DNA from: a virus
Reading direction: 5' to 3' (one strand)
DNA length: 64,000 nt
Virus record (IMG/VR): IMGVR_UViG_3300042462_000099
Span: 1-64,000 of that record
Shown here: in pieces, positions 483-55,647 of the stretch
How the letters are laid out: every line of letters starts with the position of its first letter
Position numbering within the stretch: the stretch's first letter is position 1
Translations under genes and position numbers: made by a program
Notes under the pieces: model-generated
The model's database searches: none
Told to the model about the DNA's origin: nothing
What the model saw: the letters and a program-made list of their open reading frames with translations, nothing else

Positions 483-3400
483 TTATATCCTCCAATGTAA
501 CTGTGCCGTCTTTTGTTTTTCCAAAACTGAACTTATAAGACTTTCCTTCTTCAATATGCATATAGGCTTTTGCAAATGATGTTGGAAATACTGTTATGGA
601 ATGCAACTCTCTTGATGTATCTGCCAAAGTTAGCGATGCCATCTTCTTTCCAGTCTTTGTAATCCTTGGTTTAAAAGATACAACAAACATTTCTTCATCA
701 GTGTATGGTAGTTGCTTATAGCCTAAGAACTTAACAAGAGCGTTAGTTGACCCCTTTATCTCATCAGAAGGAACTGCAGAAACAATCCTATTGTCATTAA
801 CAAGAATGAGGTAAGTACGACCAGTCTCAATAGTGGTATTTTCATCATCAAATATGCCGACACTGCCAGTTTTGTCCAAAACTTCAACTCGTGACCATCC
901 TGTTCCTCGCTTAATTGATTTTACCATACCCATAAAAATGTATGATCCTTTTTCTTCAAAGTCAACAATATCCTGAATGAATGCGTAGTAGTGAGAAGGA
1001 ATAGTAATATTAAACTCTGGAAGGTTTAAATACTCATATAGGTTTTCTTTAATCTCTGTATCATTTCTTGGATTATCATTAAATGTTGCTGCGCCGATTG
1101 CATTTAAGGCTTGTAGTGCACGACTATTTACTCCGTTACCTTTGGTAAAGGTAAACTCTTCAAGTTCTTTGTACGAACCAAATGGTCGTGATTCAATATA
1201 TCTTTGACCAATCTTGTCAGATATGAACTTGATAGCACTGAGTCCGAACCGAATGCCCTTACCCTCAATCTTAAAATCAATATCCGAATCGTTAATATGA
1301 GGTAGTTTGATGCTAATCCCCATTCTTTTTGCTTCAATAAGATATTCAGTTCTTGCATCTTTATCCTTTTCATTTTTTAATATTGAGTACATGAACTCTA
1401 GTGGGTAATGATACTTTAACCACGCCGTCCAATACGAGAGCGTAGAATAAGCAACCGCATGAGACTTGTTGAACGAATATCCTGCGTGTGCTTCGAAGTC
1501 ATGCCAAAGATCTTTAGCATCATTAGGCGAAATATAAGCAGATGCACCAGATACGAACCTATCCTTAAAAATGTCAAACTCTTTAGCATCTTTTTTCTTT
1601 CCAATGATCTTTCTAACTTTATCTGCTTCCGACATGGACATTTGTCCAAGGTGTACGCATGCTTGCATAACTTGTTCTTGGTAAAGAATACAGCCATAAG
1701 TGTCCTCCGTAAATTCTTTTAGTATTTGATGGATATATGATATGTTTTTGCGACCATGCTTTCTGTCAACATATTCTTTTCCAATAGTATTCATTGCGCC
1801 TGGACGAACTAAGGCATTAGATGCAGCAAGTTCATCAAGATTTTTTACACCCATTTTAATAAGAAGGTTGGTATATGGCGCTGCTTCACACTGAAACACA
1901 CCCTTTGTAAAACCACTTGATAGCATTTCATAAACATTTGCATCGTCCATCTTAATCTTAAGAAGATCTATTTTCTTTCCATCTCGTTCTTTAATGATAT
2001 CAATAGTGTCTTTTAATACAGATAATGTTTTTAATCCTAATGCATCAATCTTTATAAGCCCGATGCGTTCAGCCTCTTCCATGTCGACACCAACAACAGG
2101 TATACGTTCATCAGACCCAGTAGAAGATCTTGTTTCCAACGGAGCAAACCTAAAAATCGGATCTTTGCTAGTGACCACACCAGCAGCGTGTATGCCAGTA
2201 CCACGAATACGACCACGTAATTGTTCACCATAGACCTCCACCTCTGGATATTTTTCTCTAAACTCTCTTGTTGATTTTGATGTGCAATAATCATCCCATG
2301 AATCAACTGTCTTTAAAACTTTGTTAACATCTGACAATGGTATATTTAATACTCTTGATACATCTCTAACAATTCCTTTTCCAGTAAACTGTAAGAATGT
2401 AGCAATTGATGCAACATGTCGATACTGTCTAACTAAATAATCTTTTACTTCTTCACGACGAGTGTCTTGGATATCAGTGTCAATATCTGGAAAGTCATTG
2501 CGGTCTGGGTTGATAAATCGGAAGAAAAGAAGTTTGTGCTTTATCGGGTCAATGTCAGTAATCCTTAGAGCATAACAAACCAAAGAACCTGCAGCCGAAC
2601 CACGACCTGGGCCTACCATGATCTCTTCCTTTTTAGCCCAGTTAATCATGTTACTCACAACAAGGAAATATGGGGCAAACTTCTTGTCCTTAATAATCTG
2701 CAACTCTTCTTCAAGTCTGTCAAGGTACTCTTGATTTTCTGCCAAACCTCTTTCGACCAAACCTTCCATAGCAATCTTTGCAAGTTCTTTGTCAGGACTC
2801 TTATACTGCACTGGTAGTAAATTTAGTCCTTCTTGTATATCATAGTCTTCTACTGTATCTGCTAATAGGATTGTGTTTGAGTATATGTCAGGTCTGTCTA
2901 TCCCCTGCGATTCCATCGCTGCCTTCATCTCTTCATAAGATAAAAGATGGATGTCAAACTTATTAAAAGTTATCTGACGGTCTTCGCCATAAAGATAGTC
3001 AAGTCTCTTCATCATGTCTGGCTGCTTCTTGGACTTATCATATGTTGTATCTTTTTGAATCTTTGCATGAGTATTCATAAGAAGTTTAAATTCTTGAATC
3101 TCTATCTGAGACTTATCTGCATGGTGACAGTCTGGAGTCACAATAGCCTTAATTCCAAACTCATCTGCTAAATCAAGAAGATGCTTATTAATATGAGGTT
3201 CGTTATGCGGCATTACCTCAATATAATAGTCTTGACCAAATCGTTCTTGGAACCAGGATATATATTTCTTTGCAAGTGCAAACTCTTCTTCTTCAAGTGC
3301 TTTAACCAAAACACTGCTTGGACAAGCAGAAGAAACAATAATACCTTCTTTATACTTATCTAATATTTCAAAATCAAATCGTGGCTTCTTAAAGAAACCA

Positions 3401-15576: not shown

Positions 15577-18500
15577 TATAATCTATTCCCCCGAATTTTC
15601 TGTGCGTCAATGCCCTTTATCTGAGCAATAACTGTCTTTGCAATTTCATCTGGGTTTGAATCAGACTTAACATTTACATTGATACTATAATTATACACTG
15701 AATCCCCAATAGAATCTCCATTATTTATTGCCTTCATTCTATCAACTCCATAAGAATCAACCGCATACTTGCTCATAACAAACTCACCTGGAGTAAGCAT
15801 TGCTGGAACCGTATCAGTCCCCTTGGCAAATCCACCAACCGACATGTACTTTGGAACTATTCCGCCCTTAGCAAGTCCATACCAGCCAAAGTCAGTTGCA
15901 AATCGATCTGCTTTTAGTTCGGCTGCTTCTTTTGCTTTTAATAGTGCAAGGGCTTCTGCTGCTGCTTTTGCTTCTGCTTCTTCTTTTATTCTTCTTGCTG
16001 TTTCTGCAATTGCAGCATCTCTTGCATTCTTTTCCGTACCAGAGGAATTGTCACTAAAGTCCCAATCATTGGCAGAACCAGGACCACCCTTTACCCAACC
16101 CTTAGCATTATCCCATCCATAATCTCCAGCAGGTTTTTCTGGCTTCACGCAATTACCCTTACCATCAGATACAAGTGGTGCTGTACATACTGTTGGATTT
16201 GTAGTAGTAGTTGTAGTAGGGGCTGTAACAGTTGTTGTAGTAGCGACTGTATTAACATATACAGTTTTATATTCTTTTGTAAATATTTCAATAGTTTTCG
16301 AAGATGGTAGAAGATTAATGTCTCTAAGAATATCTGCCATAGACTTTGCGCCCTTTGCAGTAGACTCTGCAACTGCTGCGATAGCGTCCTTCATTCTCTT
16401 TTCCATAGCCTCAGAAGTTGCTTCTGCTGCTAGAGCAATACGTTCCCAATCATCTGCTGTAAGGCCAGCAAAAGTTTCTACATCATCAAGTTCTGCATTG
16501 ATGGCAATCAGTGCTGCTTCTTGTGTAGCAAGAGATGCATCTTGTTCTGCTAACGCAGTGACAATTGCTTGCTGTGCATCCATTTCTGCCTGAACTGCTT
16601 TTAGTTGTGCTTCAGTCGCTGCTTTGGCAGCAGCAATCGCTGCCTGACGGGCAGGTTCAAGGGCATCTTGCTCTGCTTTTGCAGCCTTAAGATCTGATTC
16701 AAGTTTTGTTTTAATGTCTGCTATTTGTTGTTCTAGCAAGACTCTTTCTGGATTGTTCTCTAATGCATAAATTTGTTCTGAAATAATATACTGCTCTTCA
16801 AGAATCTGAGTTCTTGTTTTTCCATCTTTGTTTGTTAAAGCATTAACATCATTTTCTCTTGACTGATTAAGTCCGTCCATCTGTGCATTTCCAAAATCAC
16901 CAGCATTAGCAGAACGAATATCTTGAACGGCTGCTGCTGCAGCAGAAATATCTCCAGATGATAAAGCATCTGCCAAACCTAGTTGCTGTTGCTGCTCTCT
17001 TGATATTCTTTCGTTAATGGATAATACATTTTGTAATGCTTCTGCTTGAAGGTCATACTTTTTGTTTATGTCTTCTGCTGCTTTATCAATTAAAGATAGG
17101 TCATGGCTAAGAACATTTGACTTATCTTGATATTTTTTAATTGGGTCATCAAAGTCTTTCTTTATTTTATCTTCTTTTGCAGAGATAGCGGTATCTGCAT
17201 CAGACTGAAGTTTATTAATTTTATCTTGTACAGCCTTTTCTCTAGCATCATAATCGGCATTAACTGCATCAACAGCATCATTCATAGACTTACTAATATT
17301 ATCAAACTTTGTTTGGATCTGTGCCATATTTGCATTAGCAACATTCATTTGTGAGGCAACCAAAGATCTTTCTTTTCCAACACTTGCTTGGGTTTTATTT
17401 CCAAGTAAACTAGTTAATGCTTCTGGGGTGTAAGCCTTTTTCGTTGTAGGATCAATCATTCTTGATGCTACATTTGCTACAGCCTTTGCTCCAACGTTAA
17501 CTCCACCGTAGGTAGTACCATCTGGCCTTGTTCCCTTTTCACTAACATACCCTGCAAGTTCTGACCCAGTCATTCGTGATCTTAGTCTTGATTTTATTCC
17601 AAGGGCTTCTTGAGCAGCAGATGCACCACCCATAATAATTTCTGACACTGTCTTTGTAATATTTACTTTAATGTCTGAATTCTTTTTAATTTCATTTAAA
17701 GAATCAACTACATCTTGTAGTGATGCATTTGCACCAGCAGTCTTATTTTTAACTGCATCCATTGCTGCAAGTAGGGTGCTAAGTTGTTCTGGATCTCCAA
17801 GGGCATCTGTCATTGCTCCTTCTGATATTCCACGGGACAAACCAGATGATGCTAGGAAAGCCTGAAGTTCTTGTCTTCTTGCCATATCTGCATTTTCTTG
17901 TCTTGCTCTTGCTCCTTGAGAAACTATGTTGTTAATCTTGTCTCTTGTGTCTGCTTGAACAGCAAGAGCATTGTTAATCCTTAGTTCTTCATCAGTAATC
18001 TTTCCTGTAGCAATTGCAGTTGTATATGCCTCATCACTTAATACTCTTTGGATTTGAGTATTTGTCATTCCCAGTCCTGCTAATTTTTTCATAACAATTG
18101 ATTGTTGATCAAAGTTTCTAATTGTCTGAATTTGTGCTACATTGAAGTCACCAATAATTGCTTTGTCAAATCCAGCCGCAACTTCTTTACCTTTTGTATT
18201 TAGTGCAAGGTCTCCAACCTTAGCACCCTTTGCTAAGAATTTTTTACCTTTAGGATCGTTTGGGTCAAGTACTCTGCCTTTATTCTTGCCACTCTTAACC
18301 TTTTTAGTTGCCACCTTGCCATACTTAGCCTGCTCTGTTTTGTCAAGGCCAGTAAACCAATCAATGAACTGTCCATTATAACCTTTAGTAGGATCTGTTG
18401 CCTGAGTAGGCTTGCCAGATTTCATACCCATTAGTTGTTGTTGTATACCGTTAAATTTATTACCAATCTGTCCACCAGAGACAGCCTTAAACAAAGCCTT

Positions 18501-21500
18501 GATTCCACCTTCAGCATCAATTGCTGCAAGGCGAACATTCTTAAGTCTTGTCATCAAGTCATCAATTGGGGTTGCTGCTCGTTCTGCTTTTTCTACAGGA
18601 GTAGTCACGCCTGGAATTACTGGGCCTTTATTTGCTGCCTTAGAATTTCCAACATTCCATGCTTCGGCTTCACCAGTCTTAGCAATTGCTGCTCTTTGCT
18701 CTACTCCACGATCTCCAGTAAGCCTTGCTATTCCCTTTGCAGCCATGTAAGCATCTATAACATTTGAATCACCAGAAGCAACAAAGTCCATCATCATACT
18801 TGTTGTTATTTGTTTTCCATCTGCTCCGACAAGCATATTCCAGTTTGCAAGAATGGCTTGCATTGTAGGGTCACCCGCTTTTGCAGCGTCTTGAACCTCA
18901 ATTTTTGTTAATATACTTTTTGCTTTACCATCTTTAGTTTTAAAACCATCAAGCACTTTTTTAAATGCTGCAACTTTTTTAATTTTATTAATACCATCAA
19001 CATTTATATCAACAGTTGTTCCGTACTTAGCCTTCATGTTTGAAAGAATATTAATTGCTTCTGTATTTTCTTTAATATTTACTTTATTGTCTGGATGAGA
19101 GATATACGCAACAGTTGTTTGTATTGTATTATCTGTTGCTCCACCCTTCATAAGCATTTGCATAACAACATTTGCTTCTGCTGTACTACCAGTAGCAGCA
19201 ACAAGCAGTTCAAAGTCTGCAACAAATGTTCCACCTGATTCAGCAAGATCTGCTAATCTTATTGCAACAAGTGGATCAATAGACCCTGCTGCAAGATCTA
19301 GTTGAAGAACAGTTTTAAAACTACTGTCTTTCATTCCTTCAAGTCTTGTTACAGAATTATCAGCAAAAGTCTTCATAGCACTTGAAGAGTCTTTATATCT
19401 TTCTCCTACTGAAAGTTTTATTGCATCATTAAAGGCATCGCCTCCAACATTTGCTTTAGCAGCAACCAAAGAGTCTAGGTCTGCCTTGTTCTGAGCAGTA
19501 AGTAGTCCAAGATCCCTTGCTCTGTCTTTTTCAATTTGTGCTCTTTCTGCATCGGTTTTTGCCATTGCTAGTTTGATGTCGTACTGCTTATTAAGAGCAT
19601 CTACAGCATTATTTCCACTCTCTACCGCAGAAATTGCCATCTGAACTGCTGCTGAATCAAGTTTTGCTTTTTCTTGTCCTGCTTTATTCCAGTCCCAAAG
19701 AAGTTTTGCACCAACTGCAATTGTGGCAACTGCTGCTGCCCAGCCAACTGGATTCCAGAAGTTTGTTGCTGCTGTGGCTGCAAGAACGCTTGCTGTTCCT
19801 GCTGTGGCTGCTGTGGCTGCTGCAGCACCTCCTGCAATTCCAATACCTAGTCCAACTCCTCCTGCAACAGCCCCTGTTTTTAATAGACTTCCAGCATCTT
19901 TACCAGGTTGCTTACCCCAAAGTTCCCCTCTAGAAGTATCTCCTGTTTTTTCAAGAGCATCTGTTGCACCCTTAACTGTTCTTGCTTGAATTTCTGCAAT
20001 TATTTGTAATGGATTGTTTAATAAATCTTGTCCATTGGGGCCTAGTAGTTCTGACAGTTCTCCAGTAATTACTGCTGGTATTTCATAACTACCTAGTTGT
20101 TCTCCAAGTGCAGAAGCAATACTTCTTGCTTGATCCATACTCAATACACCTTGGCTTATTGCTGTTCCAAGTTGTAGTGCTATATTTTTTCCTATATCTG
20201 TTTGAGATGCTCCAGTTTTTGCTTGAACATTAATATCTTCTAAAAGTGCTTTTCCTGGACCAGAAGTTAAATAAGTTTGTCCAGACTTTCTTGTTTCTGC
20301 ATCTACTCCCGAAGCCATGTCTGCTCTTCGTTTATTTGCAGACTCTGTAGCACTTACTGTTTTTGTTATTTTAGAAATTTCTATAAGTTTATCTGTTGTC
20401 ATGGACATAGAGTTACCTAAAGCAACGCCTTCTTTTCTTGCATTGTCCATAGCCTTTCTATAAAGCCATATTGCTCCGATCACGGCTGTTAGTGCAACTC
20501 CAGCAGCAATCCAAGGATTCATAAGCATTGGAAGCATGCCTGCTACTGCTGAGGCTGCGAATAAGCCTGTTGTAACCTTTGCGTCTGCTCCTCCCATCAT
20601 GGCACCCATTGCAACTGCGCCAATCGCTCCTGCTGCAGGGCCTGCTATCTTGCCAACTTTTTCTTGTCTTGCTGCTAAATTTAATTTGCGAGTTTGTTTA
20701 TTCTCTGCCTTTTGCTTTCTTGCTGCTGCTTCTTCTTCACGCTGTTTAGTTAGTTCAGCACGACGCTCACGATCTGCCCTATTTTTTTCTTCATTGGCAC
20801 GGATCTCTGCAGTTCTTGCTGCTTTTGCTTCTGCTGCTGCTTTGTCTTGTGCTGCTTTAAGACTTGCTGCTCTTGCTTTTTCTTGTAATTTTTCATGGTC
20901 ACGAAGAGCCTGTGCTAACTGTGCTTCTGTTGCACCAGCCTTTTGTAGTGCAACTCTTTTTTCAATCCAGGTATCGCCCTTAGCCTTGGCTCGCATAGTT
21001 TGTCTTGGCATATCTTTCTTTGCAACAACTGAGGTTCCTGCTGGCTGATTAATAACTCTTGTATCATCTGCTGTTCCGCCAACTCTTTTTACCTTACCAG
21101 TTTTTGCTTTTCCAGAAGTTGCTTTTATTTCTTTTATTTTACCAGTTTTATTATCTCGAAGTCCTTCTCCAGGAGTAGCAAGAATAAATTCACCAGTTCT
21201 TTTGTTTAAACGTAAATCAATAAGTTGCTTATATTTTTTTATGTCATCGTAAAAAGTCTTGCCTTTTCCAGTTCTTTCATCTATAATAAACTTTGCTGCC
21301 TCGGCTGCATATTTTGTTTCTGGGTTGATCATTCCAGACAATCCTGGTGGTGCCTTTTTAGTTTCTAGAAGTGCATGGGCTTTTAATTCTAACTCTGCTG
21401 CTTTAGAAACCAGCATTGCTTCTTGTGCTGTAATTGGATGTCTTCCAGAAGCAAGGAATTTTGCAGCAGCGTTATACTCTCCATTTTTTGTGCCTAAAAG

Positions 21501-24500
21501 ATTTCCATTTTTCTTATCCCAGGCTATTAAATTTGATGTTCTTTTTTCGGTTAAATAGTTGTTTACTGCACCTAAATCACCAAAAGCGTAACCCTTATTC
21601 CATTTCTCTGCAGCCCTTGCAATTGAACTTTGTCCCTTTTCTGCTTTTCCTGGTTCTACGTGTGCTGCTTCTATTTGAACAAGTCTTGCTATTTTTCCAG
21701 AATCTAAGTTTGGATACTTCTCTTGCATATAAGCCTTTAACTTAGAAACTTCTCCTTGTGCTCCAAGGGCTTTGTTCTTTGCCTCTGTCTCTGCTAATAC
21801 TGCCTTATACTCTTTGTACCCTTCAATATTATTAGACTTGAATCCACCAGCAGCCTTTGTTGGTCCACCAATTGTTAAACGCTCTTTTAGTTTGCTCCAA
21901 TTAGCAAACGATCTGTCTGATACTCTTTTACCCTTTTGAGAATCAACATCAAAAAGATATCTCATGCTTTGCTTTAGATGATCAGCAGTTGCGCCCTTTT
22001 CTCCTTTACGGCCAGTAAAGATTAGTCCATCTGGGCCTTGAACTGTTTGGGCTGCCAGGTTCTTAAGAAATAGGGGTTTCTTTTTTCTCCAGGCTTCTCT
22101 TGTTTTTTCTGTAATTTCTGGGCCACGAACAACGTCGTCCATATATCTTTCAAGGTCAACTACGTGTGGAGGCATAGCCTTTGCTTGTGTTGGGCCATCT
22201 GGAATAACTCCAGCCATGTGACCACTTACCCAGAAATCTTGATTAGCGTGTCCAGCCTGTCTTTGCTTTAACTGTTGCTCTTCAAACTTTTTAATAATCT
22301 CTGCTGCTGTTGCTTGTTTTGGTGTTGAAGGTTTGACTGCAGAATGAACTGCATGATATTGCGACCAGTCAACCTTAAGACCTTGTTCAAGTCTTTTAAT
22401 CATTCCATTGTAGACAACTTTTTCGTCTTTATTTAATCCGAACCCCTTTACAGTTTGTCTTAGTTTTGGAAGAACTGTTTCAATCTCTGTTCGCATTGCA
22501 GTGTTATATTCTGCTGCGGACATACCCTTTGGAATTGGTAATGTTGATTCAGCAAAGAACCTTCTTGCCCCACCCTTTTCTCCCAACAGATTAATATTGG
22601 CCATCTTTTCCATTGAAAGCATATCTTTTGGTTTTGCATAATCTCTTCCAAGTTTCTGGGTGGCTGCCTGAAATACTCCCATGGTGCCAGCATCTGCAAG
22701 TTTATTTCCAGATAGATTACCTCCATGAAGGTCTCTATCTCCTCTTAGATTTGCTGCTACTAACTGTCTAAAATATTCTTCCTTGCTAAACTTGCCACCC
22801 ATATTCTTTTCAGCAAATTTAGCATCAAATGGGGATTCAAGAACAATAATTTTTCTTTTTCCAGAAGGATCTAAGGGATCACGCATTGTTCTAATTGTTT
22901 GCATTGGTGCATCAAGGCCGTGTGCCTGTCTTGCTATCACCGTTGCTCTTTGTTCTGCAAGAGCAGCCTTTTCGTCTACCATTGGCTTTACAAATACTTT
23001 ATCTCCATTTGGCTTTTGATACATACCGCCAATACCAGGAACTGGGAAACTTCTTCCAGATGAGTCTGCAATTTTTCTACCAAAGTCAGTTGGGGCCATT
23101 GATCCAAATCTACTATTTTTTGCTGCTTCTGCAACTTGCTTTAGTGTTAACTCTTGCTGCATTCTCTTTGTTACTGCATCAAAAGACTTTGGCATTCCTA
23201 AAAATAGTGGTTGAGAAGAAGATTGAGATTTTCTATATGCATCAATTTGTGGTTTAATCCAAGGATACTTGTCCAAGTTTCTTTGACGTTGTTCAGCACG
23301 TCTTGCATCTTGTGCTTTTCTAATTGATTCTAATTGAGGAGAAAGCGTTCTTGATACCTGTGCTCCCTTTGCTGCTGGCAACTTTCCAGCCATATGTCCT
23401 GGAACACTATCGGTAAATATTGCCTTAAGAAGTCCATGATGCTTTTCAGTTAACTTTGCTGGAATAACTGCTTCACCTGGAGCAAGCATTGCTGGTTGAA
23501 TATCTCCAGCACCCTTTGGTCCTGGAACTGTTAGAACTCCGTCTTTATACTTTTTTACTTTTAGTCCAGCCTTGGCTGCCGTTGCTCCTGCTTTACCACC
23601 TGTAAATAGCCCAGGGCTTGATGCTGCAAGAGTTCTTGCTTGAGATGCTGCTGTCTGATAAGCCCTTCCAAGTGCTTCTACGGATGCTCTTTCTACTCCA
23701 AATACCTGAATAAGTTTTTGATGAGCACCGTGAAGTGCATTAGACTGTACTGTATTTTCAAGTTGATCTTGAGTTAAATAGTCAAACCCTGAACCAAGTA
23801 ACTTAGTCTGCCCATTTAGTTTAGCAATTCCACCACGAAGCATTGCAAAGAATTTGATTACGTTTGCAACACCGTTAGCAAGCAAACCAAATGTCATAAG
23901 AACTACTGGTCCTATTCCGCCAAGTACTGCAAGCATAATGGTTACAAACTTCTTTGTTCCATCACTAAGATTATTGAACTTCTCCATTAACCCGCCAAAG
24001 AATTTAACTACTGGAGTAAGGGCTTCTAGGAATGCCTTTCCTAAAGGCATTATTTCTACTTTAAACTTTTCAATTGCTGCCTGGAATTTTACTCCGACTG
24101 CATCTTCAACTTTTCCTAATTCTCGCTCAGATAGGATTGCAAGATCTTGAACAGATGCTCCAGCAAGTGCTAATGTTCTACTTGCTTGAGATCCATCTGC
24201 TGTTATATTCTGAAATAAAGTTGATAGACGAGCAAACTGGAACTTACCGAACATCTGCTCAATTGCTCTTGCACGGTTAAGTGGATCAAGAGTATCAAGT
24301 GCTTGTGCAAAACCAATAACAGTATTCTTTAGATTTCCAGCATTCTGTTCAACAATTCCTTGTACGTTAATACCCATACCAGCAAGCATTGCTGATGCTT
24401 TCTTGGTTGGGTTAATTAATGCTGCAAGACCAGACTTTAGTGCGTTGGCACCTTCTGATGCATTAATTCCGCCTTCCTTCATTGCTGTAAGGAAGAATGC

Positions 24501-25601
24501 AAGATCTTCTACAGAACCACCAAGTTGCTTAACAACTGGTGCTGCTTTAGGAATAGCAATTGTTAAATCTTCAATAGAAAGGACTGTCTGGTTTTCTACT
24601 GCGTTAAGGAAATCAATTTTCTTTGCAAGGTCTTCTGCTGCGATGCCAAAAGAGTTAGTCAATGATATTGTTGTTTCAAGTGCTTGCTGTTGATCAACTT
24701 GACCAAGAACTGCTAACTTAGTTGCTGTCTTTACTTGCTCTTCAAGTGCCCTGCCAGAAAAACCTGCAGCAGCAGCCTTGGCTGCCATTGCCATTGTGTC
24801 TTTTACTGATAGACCAAACTTTGTGTACTCAACACCAATTCGTTTAATATTTTCAACTGCTGTATTTGCCTCTGCGTCAGAGGTCATCATGTTTCCATAA
24901 ACACGTCTAAAGTTAACTGTTTCTTTTTCTAGTTCTCTAAAAGCCTTCGATGCTGCACCCATAAACATCATTAATGGTATTGTCAAACCAACCATTAACT
25001 GACGACCAGCCCACTGCATATTCTTACCGTAATTTAGAAGGCTAGTAGAGCCTTGCTTTAATAATTGATTAAGAAGTTGCTGTCTCTGTGCTGCGTATTG
25101 TATGCGTGTACCAAGTTCTGTAAACTTACCATTAGTCATTGCAAGGGTTCTTGGCATTACCCTGATCGCATCGACAAGCCCTCCGTTAGCCTTTGCCAAC
25201 TGAATATACTGAGACTGAATTGCCTTTACTCTGTCACGTCTTGCACGGTTAAAGATTTCACGCTCTGCTGCAAAAGCACGACTAAAAACCTTAGTGTTGG
25301 CAGTTGCAGCAGCAGCGGAATATCTGAAGTATTGCTTAAGGCTTAACTGGTTTTTTTCTAGTGCAGAGGTGAAAGCATGTGTACTAGTTTGCGCCCTAAT
25401 CTGACTTGCAGAAAACTGCCCAGTCGCATTTATAGACTGAAGCATTGCAGCATTTAAACCCTTTTGGGCATTTGCTGCTGCAACGTTACCTTGTGCTAGG
25501 GATTGATGAAATTTACTAAGTGCTCCTTGGAGTCTACGCAACTCTGCCAGCGCACCAGCGGTGTCAAAATGTATACCTATGTTAGCATTTACATCAGACA
25601 C
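15576..25601 (-). CDS. Tail tape measure protein with embedded kinase-like domain
   Basis: A 3341-residue protein, among the longest tape measures; at about 0.15 nm per residue the helical part could span up to 500 nm. Residues about 218-470 match the TP901-type tape-measure core. Hydrophobic, probably membrane-active stretches lie near 547-583, 1655-1705 and 1905-1970. A charged coiled coil covers about 1560-1645, and more helical repeats occur at about 2700-3000. The phage motif PAMLxPGExV occurs twice (about 705 and 3267). A Thr-rich linker with two cysteines lies near 3110-3150. Residues about 850-1075 look like a kinase-like fold (glycine-rich start, K872, E883, GDRDLHGGN 954-962, D970). 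Start is GTG at 25601 with an AAAGGGG site. It sets tail length and probably helps DNA entry. Confidence 0.93.
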   Translation of the reverse strand: MSDVNANIGIHFDTAGALAELRRLQGALSKFHQSLAQGNVAAANAQKGLNAAMLQSINATGQFSASQIRAQTSTHAFTSALEKNQLSLKQYFRYSAAAATANTKVFSRAFAAEREIFNRARRDRVKAIQSQYIQLAKANGGLVDAIRVMPRTLAMTNGKFTELGTRIQYAAQRQQLLNQLLKQGSTSLLNYGKNMQWAGRQLMVGLTIPLMMFMGAASKAFRELEKETVNFRRVYGNMMTSDAEANTAVENIKRIGVEYTKFGLSVKDTMAMAAKAAAAGFSGRALEEQVKTATKLAVLGQVDQQQALETTISLTNSFGIAAEDLAKKIDFLNAVENQTVLSIEDLTIAIPKAAPVVKQLGGSVEDLAFFLTAMKEGGINASEGANALKSGLAALINPTKKASAMLAGMGINVQGIVEQNAGNLKNTVIGFAQALDTLDPLNRARAIEQMFGKFQFARLSTLFQNITADGSQASRTLALAGASVQDLAILSERELGKVEDAVGVKFQAAIEKFKVEIMPLGKAFLEALTPVVKFFGGLMEKFNNLSDGTKKFVTIMLAVLGGIGPVVLMTFGLLANGVANVIKFFAMLRGGIAKLNGQTKLLGSGFDYLTQDQLENTVQSNALHGAHQKLIQVFGVERASVEALGRAYQTAASQARTLAASSPGLFTGGKAGATAAKAGLKVKKYKDGVLTVPGPKGAGDIQPAMLAPGEAVIPAKLTEKHHGLLKAIFTDSVPGHMAGKLPAAKGAQVSRTLSPQLESIRKAQDARRAEQRQRNLDKYPWIKPQIDAYRKSQSSSQPLFLGMPKSFDAVTKRMQQELTLKQVAEAAKNSRFGSMAPTDFGRKIADSSGRSFPVPGIGGMYQKPNGDKVFVKPMVDEKAALAEQRATVIARQAHGLDAPMQTIRTMRDPLDPSGKRKIIVLESPFDAKFAEKNMGGKFSKEEYFRQLVAANLRGDRDLHGGNLSGNKLADAGTMGVFQAATQKLGRDYAKPKDMLSMEKMANINLLGEKGGARRFFAESTLPIPKGMSAAEYNTAMRTEIETVLPKLRQTVKGFGLNKDEKVVYNGMIKRLEQGLKVDWSQYHAVHSAVKPSTPKQATAAEIIKKFEEQQLKQRQAGHANQDFWVSGHMAGVIPDGPTQAKAMPPHVVDLERYMDDVVRGPEITEKTREAWRKKKPLFLKNLAAQTVQGPDGLIFTGRKGEKGATADHLKQSMRYLFDVDSQKGKRVSDRSFANWSKLKERLTIGGPTKAAGGFKSNNIEGYKEYKAVLAETEAKNKALGAQGEVSKLKAYMQEKYPNLDSGKIARLVQIEAAHVEPGKAEKGQSSIARAAEKWNKGYAFGDLGAVNNYLTEKRTSNLIAWDKKNGNLLGTKNGEYNAAAKFLASGRHPITAQEAMLVSKAAELELKAHALLETKKAPPGLSGMINPETKYAAEAAKFIIDERTGKGKTFYDDIKKYKQLIDLRLNKRTGEFILATPGEGLRDNKTGKIKEIKATSGKAKTGKVKRVGGTADDTRVINQPAGTSVVAKKDMPRQTMRAKAKGDTWIEKRVALQKAGATEAQLAQALRDHEKLQEKARAASLKAAQDKAAAEAKAARTAEIRANEEKNRADRERRAELTKQREEEAAARKQKAENKQTRKLNLAARQEKVGKIAGPAAGAIGAVAMGAMMGGADAKVTTGLFAASAVAGMLPMLMNPWIAAGVALTAVIGAIWLYRKAMDNARKEGVALGNSMSMTTDKLIEISKITKTVSATESANKRRADMASGVDAETRKSGQTYLTSGPGKALLEDINVQAKTGASQTDIGKNIALQLGTAISQGVLSMDQARSIASALGEQLGSYEIPAVITGELSELLGPNGQDLLNNPLQIIAEIQARTVKGATDALEKTGDTSRGELWGKQPGKDAGSLLKTGAVAGGVGLGIGIAGGAAAATAATAGTASVLAATAATNFWNPVGWAAAVATIAVGAKLLWDWNKAGQEKAKLDSAAVQMAISAVESGNNAVDALNKQYDIKLAMAKTDAERAQIEKDRARDLGLLTAQNKADLDSLVAAKANVGGDAFNDAIKLSVGERYKDSSSAMKTFADNSVTRLEGMKDSSFKTVLQLDLAAGSIDPLVAIRLADLAESGGTFVADFELLVAATGSTAEANVVMQMLMKGGATDNTIQTTVAYISHPDNKVNIKENTEAINILSNMKAKYGTTVDINVDGINKIKKVAAFKKVLDGFKTKDGKAKSILTKIEVQDAAKAGDPTMQAILANWNMLVGADGKQITTSMMMDFVASGDSNVIDAYMAAKGIARLTGDRGVEQRAAIAKTGEAEAWNVGNSKAANKGPVIPGVTTPVEKAERAATPIDDLMTRLKNVRLAAIDAEGGIKALFKAVSGGQIGNKFNGIQQQLMGMKSGKPTQATDPTKGYNGQFIDWFTGLDKTEQAKYGKVATKKVKSGKNKGRVLDPNDPKGKKFLAKGAKVGDLALNTKGKEVAAGFDKAIIGDFNVAQIQTIRNFDQQSIVMKKLAGLGMTNTQIQRVLSDEAYTTAIATGKITDEELRINNALAVQADTRDKINNIVSQGARARQENADMARRQELQAFLASSGLSRGISEGAMTDALGDPEQLSTLLAAMDAVKNKTAGANASLQDVVDSLNEIKKNSDIKVNITKTVSEIIMGGASAAQEALGIKSRLRSRMTGSELAGYVSEKGTRPDGTTYGGVNVGAKAVANVASRMIDPTTKKAYTPEALTSLLGNKTQASVGKERSLVASQMNVANANMAQIQTKFDNISKSMNDAVDAVNADYDAREKAVQDKINKLQSDADTAISAKEDKIKKDFDDPIKKYQDKSNVLSHDLSLIDKAAEDINKKYDLQAEALQNVLSINERISREQQQQLGLADALSSGDISAAAAAVQDIRSANAGDFGNAQMDGLNQSRENDVNALTNKDGKTRTQILEEQYIISEQIYALENNPERVLLEQQIADIKTKLESDLKAAKAEQDALEPARQAAIAAAKAATEAQLKAVQAEMDAQQAIVTALAEQDASLATQEAALIAINAELDDVETFAGLTADDWERIALAAEATSEAMEKRMKDAIAAVAESTAKGAKSMADILRDINLLPSSKTIEIFTKEYKTVYVNTVATTTTVTAPTTTTTTNPTVCTAPLVSDGKGNCVKPEKPAGDYGWDNAKGWVKGGPGSANDWDFSDNSSGTEKNARDAAIAETARRIKEEAEAKAAAEALALLKAKEAAELKADRFATDFGWYGLAKGGIVPKYMSVGGFAKGTDTVPAMLTPGEFVMSKYAVDSYGVDRMKAINNGDSIGDSVYNYSINVNVKSDSNPDEIAKTVIAQIKGIDAQKIRGNRL

Positions 25602-38733: not shown

Positions 38734-39261
38734 TACAATGCGGGTAAACCAACGTGGTGTTGTGTATCGTATTCCATCTTGAATTCCCCGAACTCCGTGC
38801 ACATAGTCTGGATTGTCTGGGAAGCAAAGAAGATCTCCTGGCTCAGGCTTATGAGATATACCTAATGCTGGGAAATATATATCTCCACCAGTATAGTCGT
38901 CATTAAGATAAAGAATTGTTGCAATATCATTTGGTCTATTCATATCATAATGCTCGTGCATGCCCTCACCTGGAGTAAACTTTGCAATATGTGTTTTTTC
39001 ATCTAAGAAAGGCTGAAATGGCCCTTCATAATTTTCAAGAACAAAATCATAAACCTTTTTAGCATACTCTTGCAAAACATCTAAAGAAGACTGATCATTT
39101 CTTTGTATTTCGTGATATGTATGTACTGTAAACTCTTTTTCGCCATTTCCATACTCAGTAAAAAGAAGTGTATGTGCTTTTGAGTATTCTGTAATAGACA
39201 TTGCCAAATTCTTTGGCATAAACTCTTTTACATATATTACTTTTGATTTTAAATCTTCCAT
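38731..39261 (-). CDS. 2OG-Fe(II) dioxygenase, prolyl 4-hydroxylase-like
   Basis: A 176-residue double-stranded beta-helix oxygenase. The iron triad is visible: H104 and D106 in EHYDMNRP, and H155 in DYVHGVRG. R165 in IRYTTPRWF would bind 2-oxoglutarate. ATILYLNDDYTGGDIYFP (113-130) is the typical P4H core strand pair. It would hydroxylate a protein side chain (Pro or Lys) with O2 and 2-oxoglutarate in the cytoplasm. It overlaps the reductase stop by 1 nt. A candidate substrate in this window is the collagen-like protein at 57772-58497 (inference). Confidence 0.88.
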   Translation of the reverse strand: MEDLKSKVIYVKEFMPKNLAMSITEYSKAHTLLFTEYGNGEKEFTVHTYHEIQRNDQSSLDVLQEYAKKVYDFVLENYEGPFQPFLDEKTHIAKFTPGEGMHEHYDMNRPNDIATILYLNDDYTGGDIYFPALGISHKPEPGDLLCFPDNPDYVHGVRGIQDGIRYTTPRWFTRIV

Positions 39262-41291
39262 TATTTCACCTTAATTTCGCAATAGTCTGTTGTGCAATAT
39301 GCTTCACCCTGAGCCTCAAGATTATCTACACCGTCGTAAATTGCTCCAAAGTCAATGTGCTTCAATTTGCCAATATAACCATTATACTCCTCTTCAGTAA
39401 TCTGAGTATATGGTTGCTGAGGATATGTATGATTTCCCATTGGTAGGAACGAAACAGCCTTCAATTGCCCTTCGTACATATGTAGTGCTGGAGCAACGTG
39501 CTTTGATTCTGTTTCCTTGTCAAAAGATAGTGTTACAGAAACTCCATTGTCTGACCAGTACTTCTGAGCAGTTGCAGCAAGGGCAATCTTTTCAAATAAT
39601 GTTACATCCTTTTCAGAACGTTTTTGTCCTGACTTAATTGGGAAATAAACTACAGATGTATTTGCTGAGACTACGTCTTTTTCAACGTTATAATTTGCTG
39701 CCTTGAATAAATGCAGCATTGGATCTGTATCACCAAAACGGACTGCACGTAAGAAGAATTCTCCTCCAGGACCCCAGTGAACTCCAGGAGTTGCACCAGA
39801 AAGAATTGATACTGATCCTGATGGCTTAACTGTTGTTACACGAATTGATTCACGAACACATAGCCATTCTGAATACTGGTGATCATAGTGACGGATCTTG
39901 TTATACCCTTCATCCATCCATTCACGAACTGCTGGCAAACCTTTTTGATCTGCAAATGATGCAATACCAGTAAGGGATGTACCAATACGACGATTACGTT
40001 GCATGATACCGTTTGTTTGTGGCCAGTGTGTTGGAAGAAGAGTGACAGTCTTGCCATATAGGTAAGCAAACTTTAATGTCTTGAGGAAGTCCTCCTTAGA
40101 TTCATGACGATTCAAGTGCACTTCTACAAGTGTACATAATTCATATGACTCTAATGGCTGCTCCGCACAAGGATTAAAGCCCATAACACGATAGTCTTTT
40201 CCATCTGCGGGATCTGCAAGACGACCATAATTACGAGCAACATCAAGCCAAATAAATCCTGGCTCTCCATTGTTAACAATTAGATCAGTATATTTTTCAT
40301 ATTCCATTCCAACTGTTGCAGAAATTGAGTTATTTGACATCCAAGCCCAACCTGGATTTTCTGGATCAAAAGAGTTACGCTCTGGAAAAACTTCAGCATT
40401 TTTAAGATTAATAAAATCTTCGTCTCCTGCTGCTCCTAAAGCAAGAGTTGCAGAACGACGAACATTGCCAGAAACAACACATGTACCAATAAGGTTAATT
40501 ATGTCTGTGATAGCACGAGAATCTAAGGTTTCTCCTACTCTACCGCCAATTACACGATCTACCTGTGTATGTAGTTGAATAAGGGGTGCTGGACCGCTGG
40601 CGACCCCTCCAAAGCCTTTAATGGGTGCTCCTAGAGGTCTGATAAGGTCGTAGTTAAACTTTTGAATAGACTGATTTGGTCTTAGGTAAGAATTAAGAAG
40701 AAGTCTTACTGATTCAACCCAGCCTTCACGAGTGTCTGGAATTTCGAACACCTGTTCTGGTTCTGTTGGAGCAGAGATTAAGAAATTCTTTTCCTGTCCT
40801 ACTGTATCAAACCCTACTCCGATACCAAGCATCAAAGCATCCATTACCCAAGCAAACAAGGCTCCTGGATCATTCTTATCAAGGTCCTTTGTAGAAACCA
40901 TTGCACAGTTTTGGAGTGCTGCTGAGTTCTTCTTCTCCATTGTCATTGGTGTACCAAAAGTCCACATACCTCTTCCTGGTGGTGTCCACTTTAGTTCAAA
41001 CATTCTTTGGAATGCTTCTTGTGCAGACTTCTGAGCCTTGTAGTCATTCCATGGTAGACGGTTTTCTTTAGCATGGTTCTTTTGAACTGAATACATACCC
41101 TCGATTACACGACGACAAACTTCGTGCCATCTTTCCTTAGTTCCATCTTCTTTCATGCGAGAATACGTACGAATAAAAGTAATTTCTCCAAGTGAATTTT
41201 CTGCTGCATCCTTAAACCCGAATGGGCTTTCTTGGCTCTTGTACTTTTCTACGAAGTCCTCTGGAAGTTTAAAACTAAAAAAATCTGACAT
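39261..41291 (-). CDS. Adenosylcobalamin-dependent class II ribonucleotide reductase
   Basis: A 676-residue monomeric class II reductase that makes dNTPs from ribonucleotides. The cysteines are visible: C129 and C386 (active-site pair), C375 in NPCAEQ (radical site, with E377), and C666 and C671 at the C-terminal tail CTTDYC. The spacings C375-C386 and C666-C671 equal those of the Lactobacillus leichmannii enzyme (as I recall). VKPSGSVSILSGATPGVHWG (488-507) is the conserved phosphate-binding loop. A TGGTATACT promoter and an AAAGGACG site precede it. It makes phage dNTP supply depend on host vitamin B12. Confidence 0.95.
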   Translation of the reverse strand: MSDFFSFKLPEDFVEKYKSQESPFGFKDAAENSLGEITFIRTYSRMKEDGTKERWHEVCRRVIEGMYSVQKNHAKENRLPWNDYKAQKSAQEAFQRMFELKWTPPGRGMWTFGTPMTMEKKNSAALQNCAMVSTKDLDKNDPGALFAWVMDALMLGIGVGFDTVGQEKNFLISAPTEPEQVFEIPDTREGWVESVRLLLNSYLRPNQSIQKFNYDLIRPLGAPIKGFGGVASGPAPLIQLHTQVDRVIGGRVGETLDSRAITDIINLIGTCVVSGNVRRSATLALGAAGDEDFINLKNAEVFPERNSFDPENPGWAWMSNNSISATVGMEYEKYTDLIVNNGEPGFIWLDVARNYGRLADPADGKDYRVMGFNPCAEQPLESYELCTLVEVHLNRHESKEDFLKTLKFAYLYGKTVTLLPTHWPQTNGIMQRNRRIGTSLTGIASFADQKGLPAVREWMDEGYNKIRHYDHQYSEWLCVRESIRVTTVKPSGSVSILSGATPGVHWGPGGEFFLRAVRFGDTDPMLHLFKAANYNVEKDVVSANTSVVYFPIKSGQKRSEKDVTLFEKIALAATAQKYWSDNGVSVTLSFDKETESKHVAPALHMYEGQLKAVSFLPMGNHTYPQQPYTQITEEEYNGYIGKLKHIDFGAIYDGVDNLEAQGEAYCTTDYCEIKVK

Positions 41292-44484: not shown

Positions 44485-46434
44485 TTATGCTGTTAGATCG
44501 CCTGAAAGAATCCAGATATTAGTATCACGCTTTGTTAGCGTTCCACCTGAGTACTGAGCACGAAGTTTTAGTCCTGGTGTACGATAAATTGTTACTCCTG
44601 CTCCCTCTGCAATTGTTGTCTGGCCTGTTCCCTTTTGGAAAACGTCAACAGATGTTCCTATTGGAAAGGCCACTGAAGAGTTTGGTGGAACAGTTATGCT
44701 TGTTGGGCTTGAACTGTTTGTTTCAACAACATTTGTTGCATCAGATAGAGCAAGTGTATAACTTGTTGTCTGTGTATTAAATGATGACAGTGTTGCTGAA
44801 TCAAGTTCAGTCTTACTTGCCTTAAGAGCAAGAGCATTTGTAATTGTAGTTGAGAAGTTTGCATCGCTACCCAGCGCTGTTGCTAACTCGTTTAATGTAT
44901 TGAGAGTTCCAGGTGCTGAAGCGACTAATGCTGCAATTGCTGAGTCAGCATATGCTGTTGTTGCTATCTGAGTATTATTTGTTCCTGCTGCTGCTGTTGG
45001 GGCAGTTGGTACACCAGTAAGTGCTGGTGATGCAACTGATGCCTTCAAAGCATCTGCAGTATCTACATATGTTTTAGTAGCCAAGGCTGCTGTATCAGCA
45101 ATTCCGTGGATATCTGTAGTGTCTGTAGCATGTGATGACAATGCTGAATCAGAGTATGTTTTAGTAGCAAGTGCTGATGTATCAGCAATTCCATGAACGT
45201 TTGTTGTATCATCGTTGTGCGCTGTTAGTGCTGTTCCTGCTGCAGTTGCTGCTGCAGCAATAGCGTCTGCTTCTGCTGTATCAGCGTATGACTTTGTAGC
45301 AAGAAGTGAAGTATCTGCAATTCCATGAACATCAGTTGTACTTGTGTTATGAGATCCTACTGCTGAATCAGCGTATGTCTTTGTAGCAAGGGCTGTTGTA
45401 TCAGCAATACCATGAACATCAGTTGTATCTGATCCGTGAGCAAGAACTGCTGCATCTGCCTTAGCCTGTGCTCCAGAAGATGTTTCAAGAACTGAGGTAT
45501 CAGCAATTCCATGAACATTTGTTGTATCTGCTGAGTGTGTTCCAAGAGCAGTAGTTGCAGCGGTATCTGCTGCTGAAATAGCCTCTGACTTTGCAGTTGC
45601 TACATTTGCTGTAGTTGCAAGAAGTGCTGTGTCAGCAATTCCATGAACATTTGTTGTATCTGTAGCATGTGTTCCAATTGCTGTATCTGTATAAGATGCT
45701 GCTGTAGTTGTTGCTGCTGTCTCTGCAGCATCTGCTGCTGAATCGGCATAAGCCTTTGTAGAAAGAAGTGCTGTGTCAGCAATTCCATGAACATTTGTTG
45801 TGTCTGCTGAGTGTAAACCAATAGATGTCTCTATTTCAGTTGCAACATAAGCGTTTCTAGAAGTTGTCATGCTTGTTTCTGATGCTGTAATTGCATCATT
45901 TACTGACGTATTTGTTGCAAGAACGGTTGTGTCTGCAATTCCATGAATGTTAGTTGTATCTGCGCTATAAGTTGTAAGTGCTGCTGAGATTGCATCGTTT
46001 ACTGATGAATTTGTTGCAAGTACAGTGGTATCTGCAATACCATGAACGTTTGTTGTATCTCCATTGTGTGTAGTGATTGCATCAGAGACTACATCTCCGA
46101 TCATTTCTACTGCAGAAGCGAGTTCTCCAAGAGTATCCAATGCTGCTGGAGCATTTGTGATAAGGGAGCCTAGTTGGGAGATAGGAATTTGTCCTGAGCC
46201 ATTAAGTGTGGCAACACCACCAGGCTGTGCCTTTTCTGAGTCTAGTATGAAACCTGAAGTGTCGAGGTCTCCAAAATCTTTAAAATATGATAGGGCAGAC
46301 CATGAGTTGGTTCCGTCGCCCATCTTGAACATGCCTGAATCGGTTTCAAAACCAATTTCACCTGCTGCTAATACTGGGTTTGCTGCAGTCCATTGTGACG
46401 CAGTACCTCTACGCTGTTGCATTCTAGTTGCCAT
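44485..46434 (-). CDS. Tail fibre with nine HGIADT repeats
   Basis: A 649-residue fibre. The N-terminal MATRMQQRRGTASQWTAANP / LAAGEIGFETDSGMFKMGDG is the tail-fibre attachment motif seen in many phages. Nine copies of TT(N/D)(V/I)HGIADT follow, spaced by Ala/Asp/Thr/Ser-rich stretches of variable length that would form a trimeric beta/coiled stalk. The last about 75 residues (IPPN...SVDVFQKGTG..., YSGGTLTKRDTNIWILSGDL) match the end of the protein at 55656-56285. It is transcribed from TGTTATAAT with a leader hairpin. Confidence 0.8.
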   Translation of the reverse strand: MATRMQQRRGTASQWTAANPVLAAGEIGFETDSGMFKMGDGTNSWSALSYFKDFGDLDTSGFILDSEKAQPGGVATLNGSGQIPISQLGSLITNAPAALDTLGELASAVEMIGDVVSDAITTHNGDTTNVHGIADTTVLATNSSVNDAISAALTTYSADTTNIHGIADTTVLATNTSVNDAITASETSMTTSRNAYVATEIETSIGLHSADTTNVHGIADTALLSTKAYADSAADAAETAATTTAASYTDTAIGTHATDTTNVHGIADTALLATTANVATAKSEAISAADTAATTALGTHSADTTNVHGIADTSVLETSSGAQAKADAAVLAHGSDTTDVHGIADTTALATKTYADSAVGSHNTSTTDVHGIADTSLLATKSYADTAEADAIAAAATAAGTALTAHNDDTTNVHGIADTSALATKTYSDSALSSHATDTTDIHGIADTAALATKTYVDTADALKASVASPALTGVPTAPTAAAGTNNTQIATTAYADSAIAALVASAPGTLNTLNELATALGSDANFSTTITNALALKASKTELDSATLSSFNTQTTSYTLALSDATNVVETNSSSPTSITVPPNSSVAFPIGTSVDVFQKGTGQTTIAEGAGVTIYRTPGLKLRAQYSGGTLTKRDTNIWILSGDLTA

Positions 46435-53343: not shown

Positions 53344-55647
53344 CTAATCTGTATTAGAAATATCATACCACTGCTTGCCATCATGTGTCAAGGCGTGTTC
53401 TGTAAAGTATATGTCGTATGGCTCACAGTTTATAGATATTACTTCAACTGGGAACTCAAGCATTTCTAGTTCGGTTATTGATTCCCAGTTTCCAAGGTAG
53501 TCTCTAATTAAATCTGTTGAAATAACATCTCTTGACCATACAAACAATATTTCTTCATTACGCTTAACCATTATTACGTGGTTAGGGCTAAATGCATCTC
53601 CGTTAATTCTGTATGTCTTGTCTGTTGTGTGTCTAGTCACACTATTAACAGTTGTTATAACATTTTCAAATATGACATCGTCAATTGTTGACCAAGTCAA
53701 TAGTGAAGATGTTGTTGCATCTGTTTGAGAGATTTCACCTGAATTTACAGATAATAGTTCATCTCCTACAACAATATCTTGTGCTTCCTTTAGGCTGCCA
53801 TCAGCCATTCTAATTTTAGTCTTAGGTCCAAGAGAGTAGTATCCTGGGCCACGTGCTGGTGAGAATCCGAAGACAGAGAATGTTGGAGTAAAGGTAAAGG
53901 CTGCTGTTGGAGTAAAGGTAAAGGCTGCTGTTGGAGTAAATGAGAATGCTGGTGCGGTTGGAGTAAATGAGAAGGCATTTGGATCTGTACAAGAAGCACC
54001 TGATGCTCCTCCATCTACACACTTAACGCCAACATCTGCTTGGTAGCATGGGCTTGCTGGGTTTGGAACATCCCCCTGTGCACATAAATGGAATCCAGAA
54101 AGAAGCGCTGGATATGTTGGGGCAACTGGAGTAAATGAGAATGTTGGAGTAAATGTGAATACAGGAGTAAATGAGAACGTATTTATAAGTTCTCCACAAC
54201 ATGAATATCCTACGCCTATTTGATATTCGTTTGGTCCTCCAAGATAGGTCCTTCCTAAATCTGCACATGTAGCGGTAGTATTTTTAGTTTGAACATTTGG
54301 AGACTGACAATTTGGCTTTGCAAGTGGTGTAAATGAAAAGACACTAAATGGCGTAAATGTAAATACTGAAAATGGCGTAAATGTAAATGCTACGGTACAA
54401 GCCTCGCTTTCTTCCCAAGGACTTGACCTTCCTGCTTGATAAAATGGTTCAAGGTAATCATTTACAGAACAATCTGAATAAATAATATTTACAGTTCTAT
54501 TTTGAGCATATCTTTTTCTTATTGATCCAACACAGGTTCCCCAGTCGTCCCAATTATAAACATATGAGGTTCCAGCAGTACAAGTTACTACACAATCTCT
54601 TTGCTGTCTCCAAGGACTTGAATTTCCTACTACATAAAATTGTTGAGTTCCAGTGCTGATAGAACAGTCTGCATTAACTGTAGAATAATCTCTATCTGTT
54701 GCCCATCTAGACTGTGTTCCATTAGAGCATGTATCCCATTCTCCCCAATTATAAGTGTATGTTGTTGCTACCGTACATGTTGCAGCAACGTAATTCCACA
54801 TAGTTAAATTTACATTTGTTCCTGAAGCAACTGCAGTTCCTGATGCTGGAGATTGACTTTCTACTTTGCCACTATTAGCAGCAGTGCTTGTAGTTGTTCC
54901 TGTTGTAACACTTCCAGAAACTAGTCCTGCTGTTTGAAGTGCAGTTTGTGCTGCAGCAGAAGTCATTCCTACAACATTTGGAACTGTTTTATCTAATACT
55001 ACGGCTGGTGGGGCATTTGTTTTAACTGTACCCTGTCCTAATTGAGAAGATCCAGTTTGATTTGCTCCAGAATATACAAAAACAGTTATGTCGTGCATAT
55101 TATCTGGAGTAAGACCAGTTGCGGTAACACTTGTTGCTGTTGTTCCATATAAACTAAAACCTGGCTCGTTATCTGTAAATCTTGGAACAACCATTAAATG
55201 GAATGATACTTGTCCTGAAGATGTCCAACTAATTGTTGCAGTTGTTGTGCCAGTTGCAGTGCCCGATACGTTTGAAATACTTAGTGCTGGTGTGTATGGA
55301 GTAAAAGTAAACACACCAAATGGTACAAATGAAAACACTGAAAATGTAACTGGCGTGAATGAAAATGGTGTAACTGGTGTAAATGTAAATACACTAAACG
55401 GAGTAAAAGAAAATAGTCTATATGTAAAATCTATTGGGCTTTCATAATCAACCAATGTTCCTGCTGGCGCTGCTTGGGTTATAACAGTGTTTGTCTTTGT
55501 ATTATCTTCTTGAGTTACTGTAGATGCAGTTCCTACTATTAGACCATTGCTTTGGATTAATTCTTCGGCTTCTGTTTTTGATATTTCAAGGATATTTGGT
55601 ACTGAAACCATTCCTTTAGAAGCAGACCATTTGCTAATCCAACCCAT
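53344..55647 (-). CDS. Tail fibre with PASTA, TSR-like, octapeptide and Hint domains (B)
   Basis: A 767-residue mosaic. PASTA-like domains at about 16-76 (VPNILEISKTEAEELIQSNG) and 221-283 (VPNVVGMTSAAAQTALQTAG) suggest peptidoglycan binding. FSFTPFSV-type repeats lie at 78-117, 421-442, 491-510 and 558-597. A fibronectin-like domain spans about 120-210. Two Cys/Trp-rich modules (WGEWDTC at about 301 and WDDWGTC at 366) resemble thrombospondin type 1 repeats. The C-terminal Hint domain runs from S605 to D756, with SPNH (687-690) and THDG at the end. It is a paralogue of the 522-residue fibre. It likely binds and perhaps attaches to the cell wall. Confidence 0.8.
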   Translation of the reverse strand: MGWISKWSASKGMVSVPNILEISKTEAEELIQSNGLIVGTASTVTQEDNTKTNTVITQAAPAGTLVDYESPIDFTYRLFSFTPFSVFTFTPVTPFSFTPVTFSVFSFVPFGVFTFTPYTPALSISNVSGTATGTTTATISWTSSGQVSFHLMVVPRFTDNEPGFSLYGTTATSVTATGLTPDNMHDITVFVYSGANQTGSSQLGQGTVKTNAPPAVVLDKTVPNVVGMTSAAAQTALQTAGLVSGSVTTGTTTSTAANSGKVESQSPASGTAVASGTNVNLTMWNYVAATCTVATTYTYNWGEWDTCSNGTQSRWATDRDYSTVNADCSISTGTQQFYVVGNSSPWRQQRDCVVTCTAGTSYVYNWDDWGTCVGSIRKRYAQNRTVNIIYSDCSVNDYLEPFYQAGRSSPWEESEACTVAFTFTPFSVFTFTPFSVFSFTPLAKPNCQSPNVQTKNTTATCADLGRTYLGGPNEYQIGVGYSCCGELINTFSFTPVFTFTPTFSFTPVAPTYPALLSGFHLCAQGDVPNPASPCYQADVGVKCVDGGASGASCTDPNAFSFTPTAPAFSFTPTAAFTFTPTAAFTFTPTFSVFGFSPARGPGYYSLGPKTKIRMADGSLKEAQDIVVGDELLSVNSGEISQTDATTSSLLTWSTIDDVIFENVITTVNSVTRHTTDKTYRINGDAFSPNHVIMVKRNEEILFVWSRDVISTDLIRDYLGNWESITELEMLEFPVEVISINCEPYDIYFTEHALTHDGKQWYDISNTD
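53817..53869. repeat. 53-bp identical segment shared with 43364-43416
   Basis: The same exact match at the repeat/Hint junction of the second fibre, about 10.4 kb from its partner and in the same direction. Confidence 0.9.

Follow-up and report, generated by a model that had tools for sequence, protein, structure and literature searches.

A probable kinase-fold domain carried as an optional cassette in a giant tape measure protein of uncultured tailed phages

Introduction

Tape measure proteins of tailed phages are usually treated as rulers and pore-formers, and cell-wall enzymes are their familiar extras. A giant tape measure gene in the IMG/VR virus record IMGVR_UViG_3300042462_000099 raises the question of whether such a protein may also carry a kinase. 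The sequence studied here (the window) is a stretch of 64,000 nucleotides that makes up most of this 71,880-base record. An initial annotation, made from the letters of the window, had placed a HipA/PI-kinase-like domain at about residues 850-1075 of the tape measure and described it as a kinase or pseudokinase delivered into the host. The reading that we favour, and to which we give about even weight, is that residues 826-1089 make up a kinase-fold domain, probably an active one, which is an optional cassette in a giant tailed-phage tape measure and is delivered with it. Our computations support the predicted fold, the conservation of the residues for ATP/Mg binding and phosphotransfer, purifying selection and modularity; we infer catalysis, substrate and delivery.

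Results

The structure of the domain was predicted with AlphaFold2 (AF2). From an alignment of 70 sequences a confident model was obtained (pLDDT 94.2, pTM 0.92); a model from five sequences was poor (pLDDT 56.6) and was not used. In the confident model the order of elements is strand, strand, strand 868-874 (with K872), helix 877-892 (with E883), strand 902-907 and strand 917-924, followed by helix 940-953, the catalytic loop, a minimal hairpin, the DxG motif and a helical C-lobe to residue 1087; the helices that follow DxG (997-1087) are also confidently modelled. A Foldseek search against the PDB retrieved kinases only among the 50 matches listed, including Pto (2qkw, E 9.9e-4), CtkA (3akl, probability 0.98, query TM-score (TMq) 0.38) and Golgi casein kinase (4kqa, probability 0.96, TMq 0.42). 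Among the viral structures of BFVD, the best matches were large phage proteins, including some with the names portal (A0A6J5S481), ADP-ribosyltransferase (A0A6J5PWC9 and a Mycobacterium phage Onyinye protein) or PI3/4K (A0A6J5MJB0), with TMq up to 0.59, as well as HHTV-1 gp13; the probability was 1.00 for these. Structure prediction and fold search had been set beforehand as a test in the initial annotation, and the confident fold is kinase-like rather than a non-kinase one. Predicted structure and active-site pattern strongly support the placement of residues 826-1089 within the protein-kinase-like fold superfamily, an assignment which does not by itself fix the enzyme class. A discrete domain does lie where the annotation had put it, but it is slightly larger, with a helical lead-in from about residue 799.

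Conservation was examined in a main alignment of 70 non-redundant sequences, in which the relatives are 45-91% identical to the window domain. Nine residues (K872, R953, D955, D957, L958, N962, D970, G972 and G975) are invariant in all 70, as is E883 in 69 of them. The motif of the family reads R-x-D-x-D-L-x-x-x-N-x7-D-x-G, with the loop R-G-D-K-D-L-x-x-G-N, and D957 was taken as the HRD-type aspartate because the Asp-to-Asn spacing is 5 residues. Of the 262 columns 30 are invariant, and the probability that K872, D957, N962 and D970 would all lie in these by chance is 1.4e-4. The catalytic elements read from the window at the outset (VFVKP with K872, E883, GDRDLHGGN at 954-962, and D970) are present in that order and at those residues, and the D/N/D residues are kept in every relative examined. 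Within GDRDLHGGN, the invariant part is D955, D957 and N962; H959 is variable, the position being occupied by K, G, S, Q, H or A.

As some of the search patterns held K872, D955, D957 or N962, the conservation could be partly circular, and therefore a second set was used, consisting of 28 distinct domains that were found by way of the tape measure core, without kinase patterns. K872, E883, D955, D957, N962 and D970 are kept in all 28, including the domain of locus L325, which is 30% identical to that of the window. This highly divergent tape measure kinase (L325:4657-5403) keeps all catalytic residues and is preceded by the second module described below; LUZ19-type sequences matched it at E 0.03. 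Nine comparisons of the kinase domain gave ratios of nonsynonymous to synonymous substitution rates (dN/dS) of 0.06-0.23, which indicates purifying selection.

The domain sequence matched no known family in Pfam, PHROG, NCBIfam or PADLOC; the window domain had no Pfam match at E<=1, none of 44 members matched HipA, and comparison with PDB sequences gave short helical or unrelated matches only. In IMG/VR, a degenerate DNA search yielded 7 stretches, and profile-guided scans yielded 120, 320 and 377 loci as the alignment was widened. At least 377 IMG/VR loci encode relatives, and those examined sit in giant tape measures. Pattern searches, in which distant relatives would be missed, found no domain relative in 50,697 isolate phage records (weak matches only), none in plasmids, and none in GTDB genome contigs with either kinase or tape measure core queries. 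No report of a kinase inside a tape measure was found in the literature searched, the scope of which excluded subscription papers and preprints. A family of kinase-fold cassettes in the tape measures of a large group of uncultured tailed phages is apparently undescribed.

The gene that carries the domain was identified by its profile and its neighbours. PHROG 10030 ("tail length tape measure protein") matches residues 34-668 in a PHROG profile search (E 1e-91), and roughly the first 600 residues align with annotated Streptomyces phage tape measures (28-30% identity for the best matches), with further alignments to tape measures of Gordonia, Staphylococcus and other phages. The window also encodes a portal, a head protease, a head protein, an immunoglobulin (Ig)-domain/major-tail-type protein and minor tail proteins; the gene for the Ig-domain protein flanks the tape measure gene on one side and minor tail genes flank it on the other. 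Profile and place among tail genes both fit, and the product of the 3341-residue open reading frame (ORF) is a siphophage-type tape measure protein; its identity and coordinates had been annotated correctly (residue 850 is at 23054). The closest isolate tape measure cores come from Streptomyces phages, which hints at an Actinobacteria host.

When 16 tape measures were aligned to that of the window, the conserved blocks were the core (1 to ~740), the kinase (~799-1092), a hydrophobic region (~1680-1890) and the C-terminal ~100 residues; the stretches separating them are poorly conserved or unrelated. The window core (1-740) is mostly 48-57% identical to those of 14 other kinase-bearing tape measures. 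In L049 and L059 this value is 38-39%, and their kinase is 54% identical to that of the window, which suggests exchange. The kinase of complete tape measures starts anywhere from residue ~754 to ~1358, usually some way behind a PxMLTPGEAVI segment near 669-705 or 963.

Comparison with other tape measures, likewise proposed at the outset, was carried out by a core-only scan, which yielded 80 tape measures, 60 of them complete at the 3' end, in a sample weighted to close relatives of the window. A kinase is present in 20 of the 60 complete tape measures with similar cores. Two relatives, L259 with the kinase and L257 without, are 91% identical over 747 residues, after which the alignment is interrupted by an additional in-frame stretch of L259 and then resumes; at the DNA level the difference is an in-frame 933 nt with flanks that are 89% and 86% identical, bounded at both ends by ATGGCAGG. 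In the window, the kinase is bracketed by GHMAG at residues 735 and 1127. These comparisons support the kinase being an optional, discrete in-frame module, gained or lost just after the conserved tape measure core. In most of these tape measures, PAMLxPGEAVI / PAMLTPGEFVM segments recur at the insert junction (705-739; 23385-23489) and near the C-terminus (3268-3276; 15774-15800); they are possible module joints or processing sites.

A second recurring module (residues 1191-1525), followed with an iterated profile, lies after the kinase in 31 tape measures and before it in 2, and is found without a kinase in 2. It has no Pfam match, and other tape measure inserts gave sub-threshold Pfam matches only. 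It carries an AHVEPG...NNYL-type motif that loosely recalls a His-type nuclease finger; in L034 and its relatives the motif ASHIEE...NLVADLGYVNNYI looks similar. Single-linkage clustering placed the inserts in 7 unlinked groups, a rough guide in which the largest group is possibly joined by shared edges. The coordinates of the features are collected in Table 1.

Table 1. Features of the tape measure gene and of its kinase-fold domain (positions in the window)
Feature	Residues	Position	Strand	Basis
Tape measure protein gene	3341 aa	15576..25601	minus	ORF with GTG start; PHROG 10030; alignment to annotated phage tape measures
Conserved tape measure N-terminal core	1-740	23382..25601	minus	Alignment to other kinase-bearing tape measures
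Hydrophobic segment	550-584	23850-23954	minus	Hydropathy scan
Junction segment before cassette, AMLAPGEAVIP...GHMAG	705-739	23385..23489	minus	Motif scan across relatives
Helical lead-in of cassette, LFLGMPK... motif common to several relatives	799-825	23127..23207	minus	Alignments reach ~799 in many relatives
Kinase-fold domain	826-1089	22335..23126	minus	AF2 model; Foldseek PDB kinases; 70-sequence family
Beta-3 lysine, within VFVKP (869-873)	K872	22986..22988	minus	Kept 70/70 and 28/28
Alpha-C glutamate	E883	22953..22955	minus	Kept 69/70 and 28/28
Catalytic loop R953-G-D955-R-D957-L-H-G-G-N962 (GDRDLHGGN = 954-962)	953-962	22716..22745	minus	R953, D955, D957, L958, N962 70/70
DFG-equivalent D970-A-G972, within LADAG (968-972)	970-972	22686..22694	minus	D970 70/70 and 28/28; G972 70/70 and 25/28
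Second GHMAG, after kinase	1127-1131	22209..22223	minus	Motif scan
Second recurring module	1191-1525	21027..22031	minus	Iterated profile
Hydrophobic (membrane-type) segment	1676-1714	20460..20576	minus	Hydropathy scan

Four other genes of the window may be mentioned. They encode a 649-residue protein with a major tropism determinant N-terminal domain (44485-46434; Mtd_N, E 5.7e-13), a 676-residue B12-dependent ribonucleotide reductase-like protein (39261-41291; RNR_Alpha and insertion domain, with a weak barrel match), a 767-residue protein with PASTA domains (53344-55647; E 7.5e-19), suggesting a cell-wall-related role, and a GDP-mannose dehydratase / NAD-dependent epimerase, found here in a phage (50873-51928).

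Discussion

A possible course of events is that, as in T5, the tape measure is expelled when infection starts, and that the kinase travels along with the phage DNA. The hydrophobic segments of the tape measure would pass into the envelope of the host. The kinase segment, which lies between two of them (550-584 and 1676-1714), would reach the host cytoplasm and refold. The refolded kinase could then phosphorylate a host protein, or a small molecule, with ATP taken from the host, by which host defence might be blunted or the cell prepared for infection. Given the precedent of T5 pb2, delivery of the kinase into the host is plausible.

Several observations weigh against the reading of an active, delivered kinase. 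The TM-scores against solved kinases are low (0.22-0.42) and the C-lobe is divergent; as these scores are below 0.5, we regard the N-lobe and active site as kinase-like and the C-lobe as the domain's own. The spacing from N962 to D970 is 8, where canonical kinases and HHTV-1 gp13 have about 13, and two-thirds of the sampled complete relatives do without the kinase. By our own estimate, several copies of a folded domain of ~30 kDa should not fit an ordinary tail lumen; the domain would therefore have to be packed unfolded, located at a tail end, or released by cleavage, and this is the weakest link in the proposal.

An explanation that dispenses with catalysis is that the domain is a pseudokinase or structural part, which would bind nucleotides or proteins as a scaffold of the virion, at the head-tail joint or the tail tip, for example. 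The divergence of the C-lobe, a short beta-7/8 hairpin, the low TM-scores to active kinases and the replacement of HRD by DKD are all in its favour, but the catalytic residues are invariant across 30-60% identity, which is unusual for pseudokinases, and the tape measure can dispense with the domain; we consider this explanation unlikely. Of the two terms offered by the initial annotation, kinase is borne out as regards the fold, which is strongly supported, whereas the intact catalytic residues speak against pseudokinase. The fold might also serve another chemistry or a small-molecule target, such as AMPylation, glutamylation, or the phosphorylation of lipids, nucleotides or antibiotics. Kinase-fold enzymes of such a kind are known, SelO and SidJ among them, and the structural neighbours include phage proteins annotated as PI3/4K or named ADP-ribosyltransferase; the best PDB matches, however, are protein kinases, and with no pointer to any particular alternative this appears very unlikely.

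The kinase could also be active without being delivered, working in the producing cell, before tails are assembled or while they are, on host proteins, chaperones or proteins of the tail, and then being trapped or cleaved off. It would be made late and in large amounts together with the tape measure, by our estimate the tail tube has hardly any room for a folded kinase, and proteolysis of tape measures during assembly is possible, as in T5 and lambda (PMC10038345). A stand-alone gene, however, would do equally well, and assembly does not need the kinase, since it is optional in otherwise near-identical tape measures; such a role is distinctly unlikely in our view. That there is no kinase-like domain at all, the order of motifs being a coincidence in a repetitive tape measure, would agree with the lack of a sequence-profile match to any known family. 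It is largely refuted by the high-confidence model, the restriction of the listed PDB matches to kinases and the invariance of the active-site residues, and hardly credible; a chance motif match was rejected on fold and conservation.

A broader proposal, which we put forward tentatively and hold somewhat less likely to be right than wrong, is that the tape measures of this group are polymorphic delivery proteins, in which a conserved core and C-terminus would be combined with exchangeable effector cassettes (the kinase, the module at 1191-1525, and others), swapped at the repeated PGEAV/GxMAG junctions and delivered at ejection. They would then be a tail-borne counterpart of the head-borne polyvalent and MuF effectors. 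A conserved and swappable tape measure kinase would imply that signalling effectors, too, can be brought into the host by tape measures right at the outset of infection. As the family is common in metagenomic phages and was not found among the isolate records, work on cultured phages would miss it. Pairs that differ in having the kinase exist in nature and allow its function to be tested directly.

Among known proteins, HHTV-1 gp13 offers an independent example of a probable virion protein with a kinase-like region. This unannotated haloarchaeal virus protein of 1100 residues (L101:3426-6725), encoded two genes before a gpF-like gene, displays the K, D, N and D elements as VFEK, GNRDIHGGN and VDNG; its sequence match to the window domain in the isolate phage search was weak (E 0.3), and its score against the family sequence profile was about 0, so that the two are linked by fold only. 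It also carries two HExxH-type stretches, RHEMAH and SHEMQH, and looks like an injected multidomain protein. The BFVD phage matches are ~14% identical to the window domain and, where annotated, are not tape measures as far as their names tell.

The HipA/PI-kinase-like label of the initial annotation is reasonable in view of the structural matches to CtkA (probability 0.98, but TMq 0.38), Golgi casein kinase and PI3/4K-annotated phage proteins, but sequence profiles of HipA or PI-kinases gave no match. CtkA of H. pylori, which we take to be a HipA-related kinase, is among the best structural matches; the window domain differs from HipA-type kinases in being embedded in a tape measure, in lacking a HipA profile match, and in its shorter hairpin and different C-lobe. 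It has no PI3_PI4_kinase profile match either, and its loop is not of the GDRHxxN type of PI3/PI4 kinases. Kinases and ADP-ribosyltransferases that are presumed to be injected occur in polyvalent and head-associated proteins of phages (PMC5512222; PMC9503650), and the polyvalent-protein kinases of Iyer et al. (2017) lie within large multidomain phage proteins and are thought to modify host proteins (PMC5512222). The window kinase similarly resides in a large multidomain virion-type protein beside another recurring module. Its modelled helical C-lobe, however, is absent in polyvalent kinases (PMC5512222), and it lacks a conserved His, an insert between His and Asp, and a Pfam match. Because of the missing profile matches, the different loop and the presence of a C-lobe, membership of the HipA, PI3/4K or polyvalent kinases is not established.

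Two precedents can be named for tape measures that bear an enzyme and are expelled. The T5 tape measure pb2 is cleaved and expelled through the tip, with a hydrophobic stretch proposed to enter the membrane and an enzyme domain to digest peptidoglycan (PMC10038345). Like the protein studied here, it combines a tape measure with an enzyme domain; in pb2 this is a C-terminal muralytic metallopeptidase cleaved off in assembly, whereas in the window it is a kinase fold that lies internally, before the middle hydrophobic region. Tme, a tape-measure-related nuclease effector of the Streptomyces davawensis contractile injection system (PMC11126660), is likewise a tape-measure-like protein that serves as an effector; its endonuclease is C-terminal and belongs to an injection system, whereas the window encodes a kinase-fold domain in a phage.
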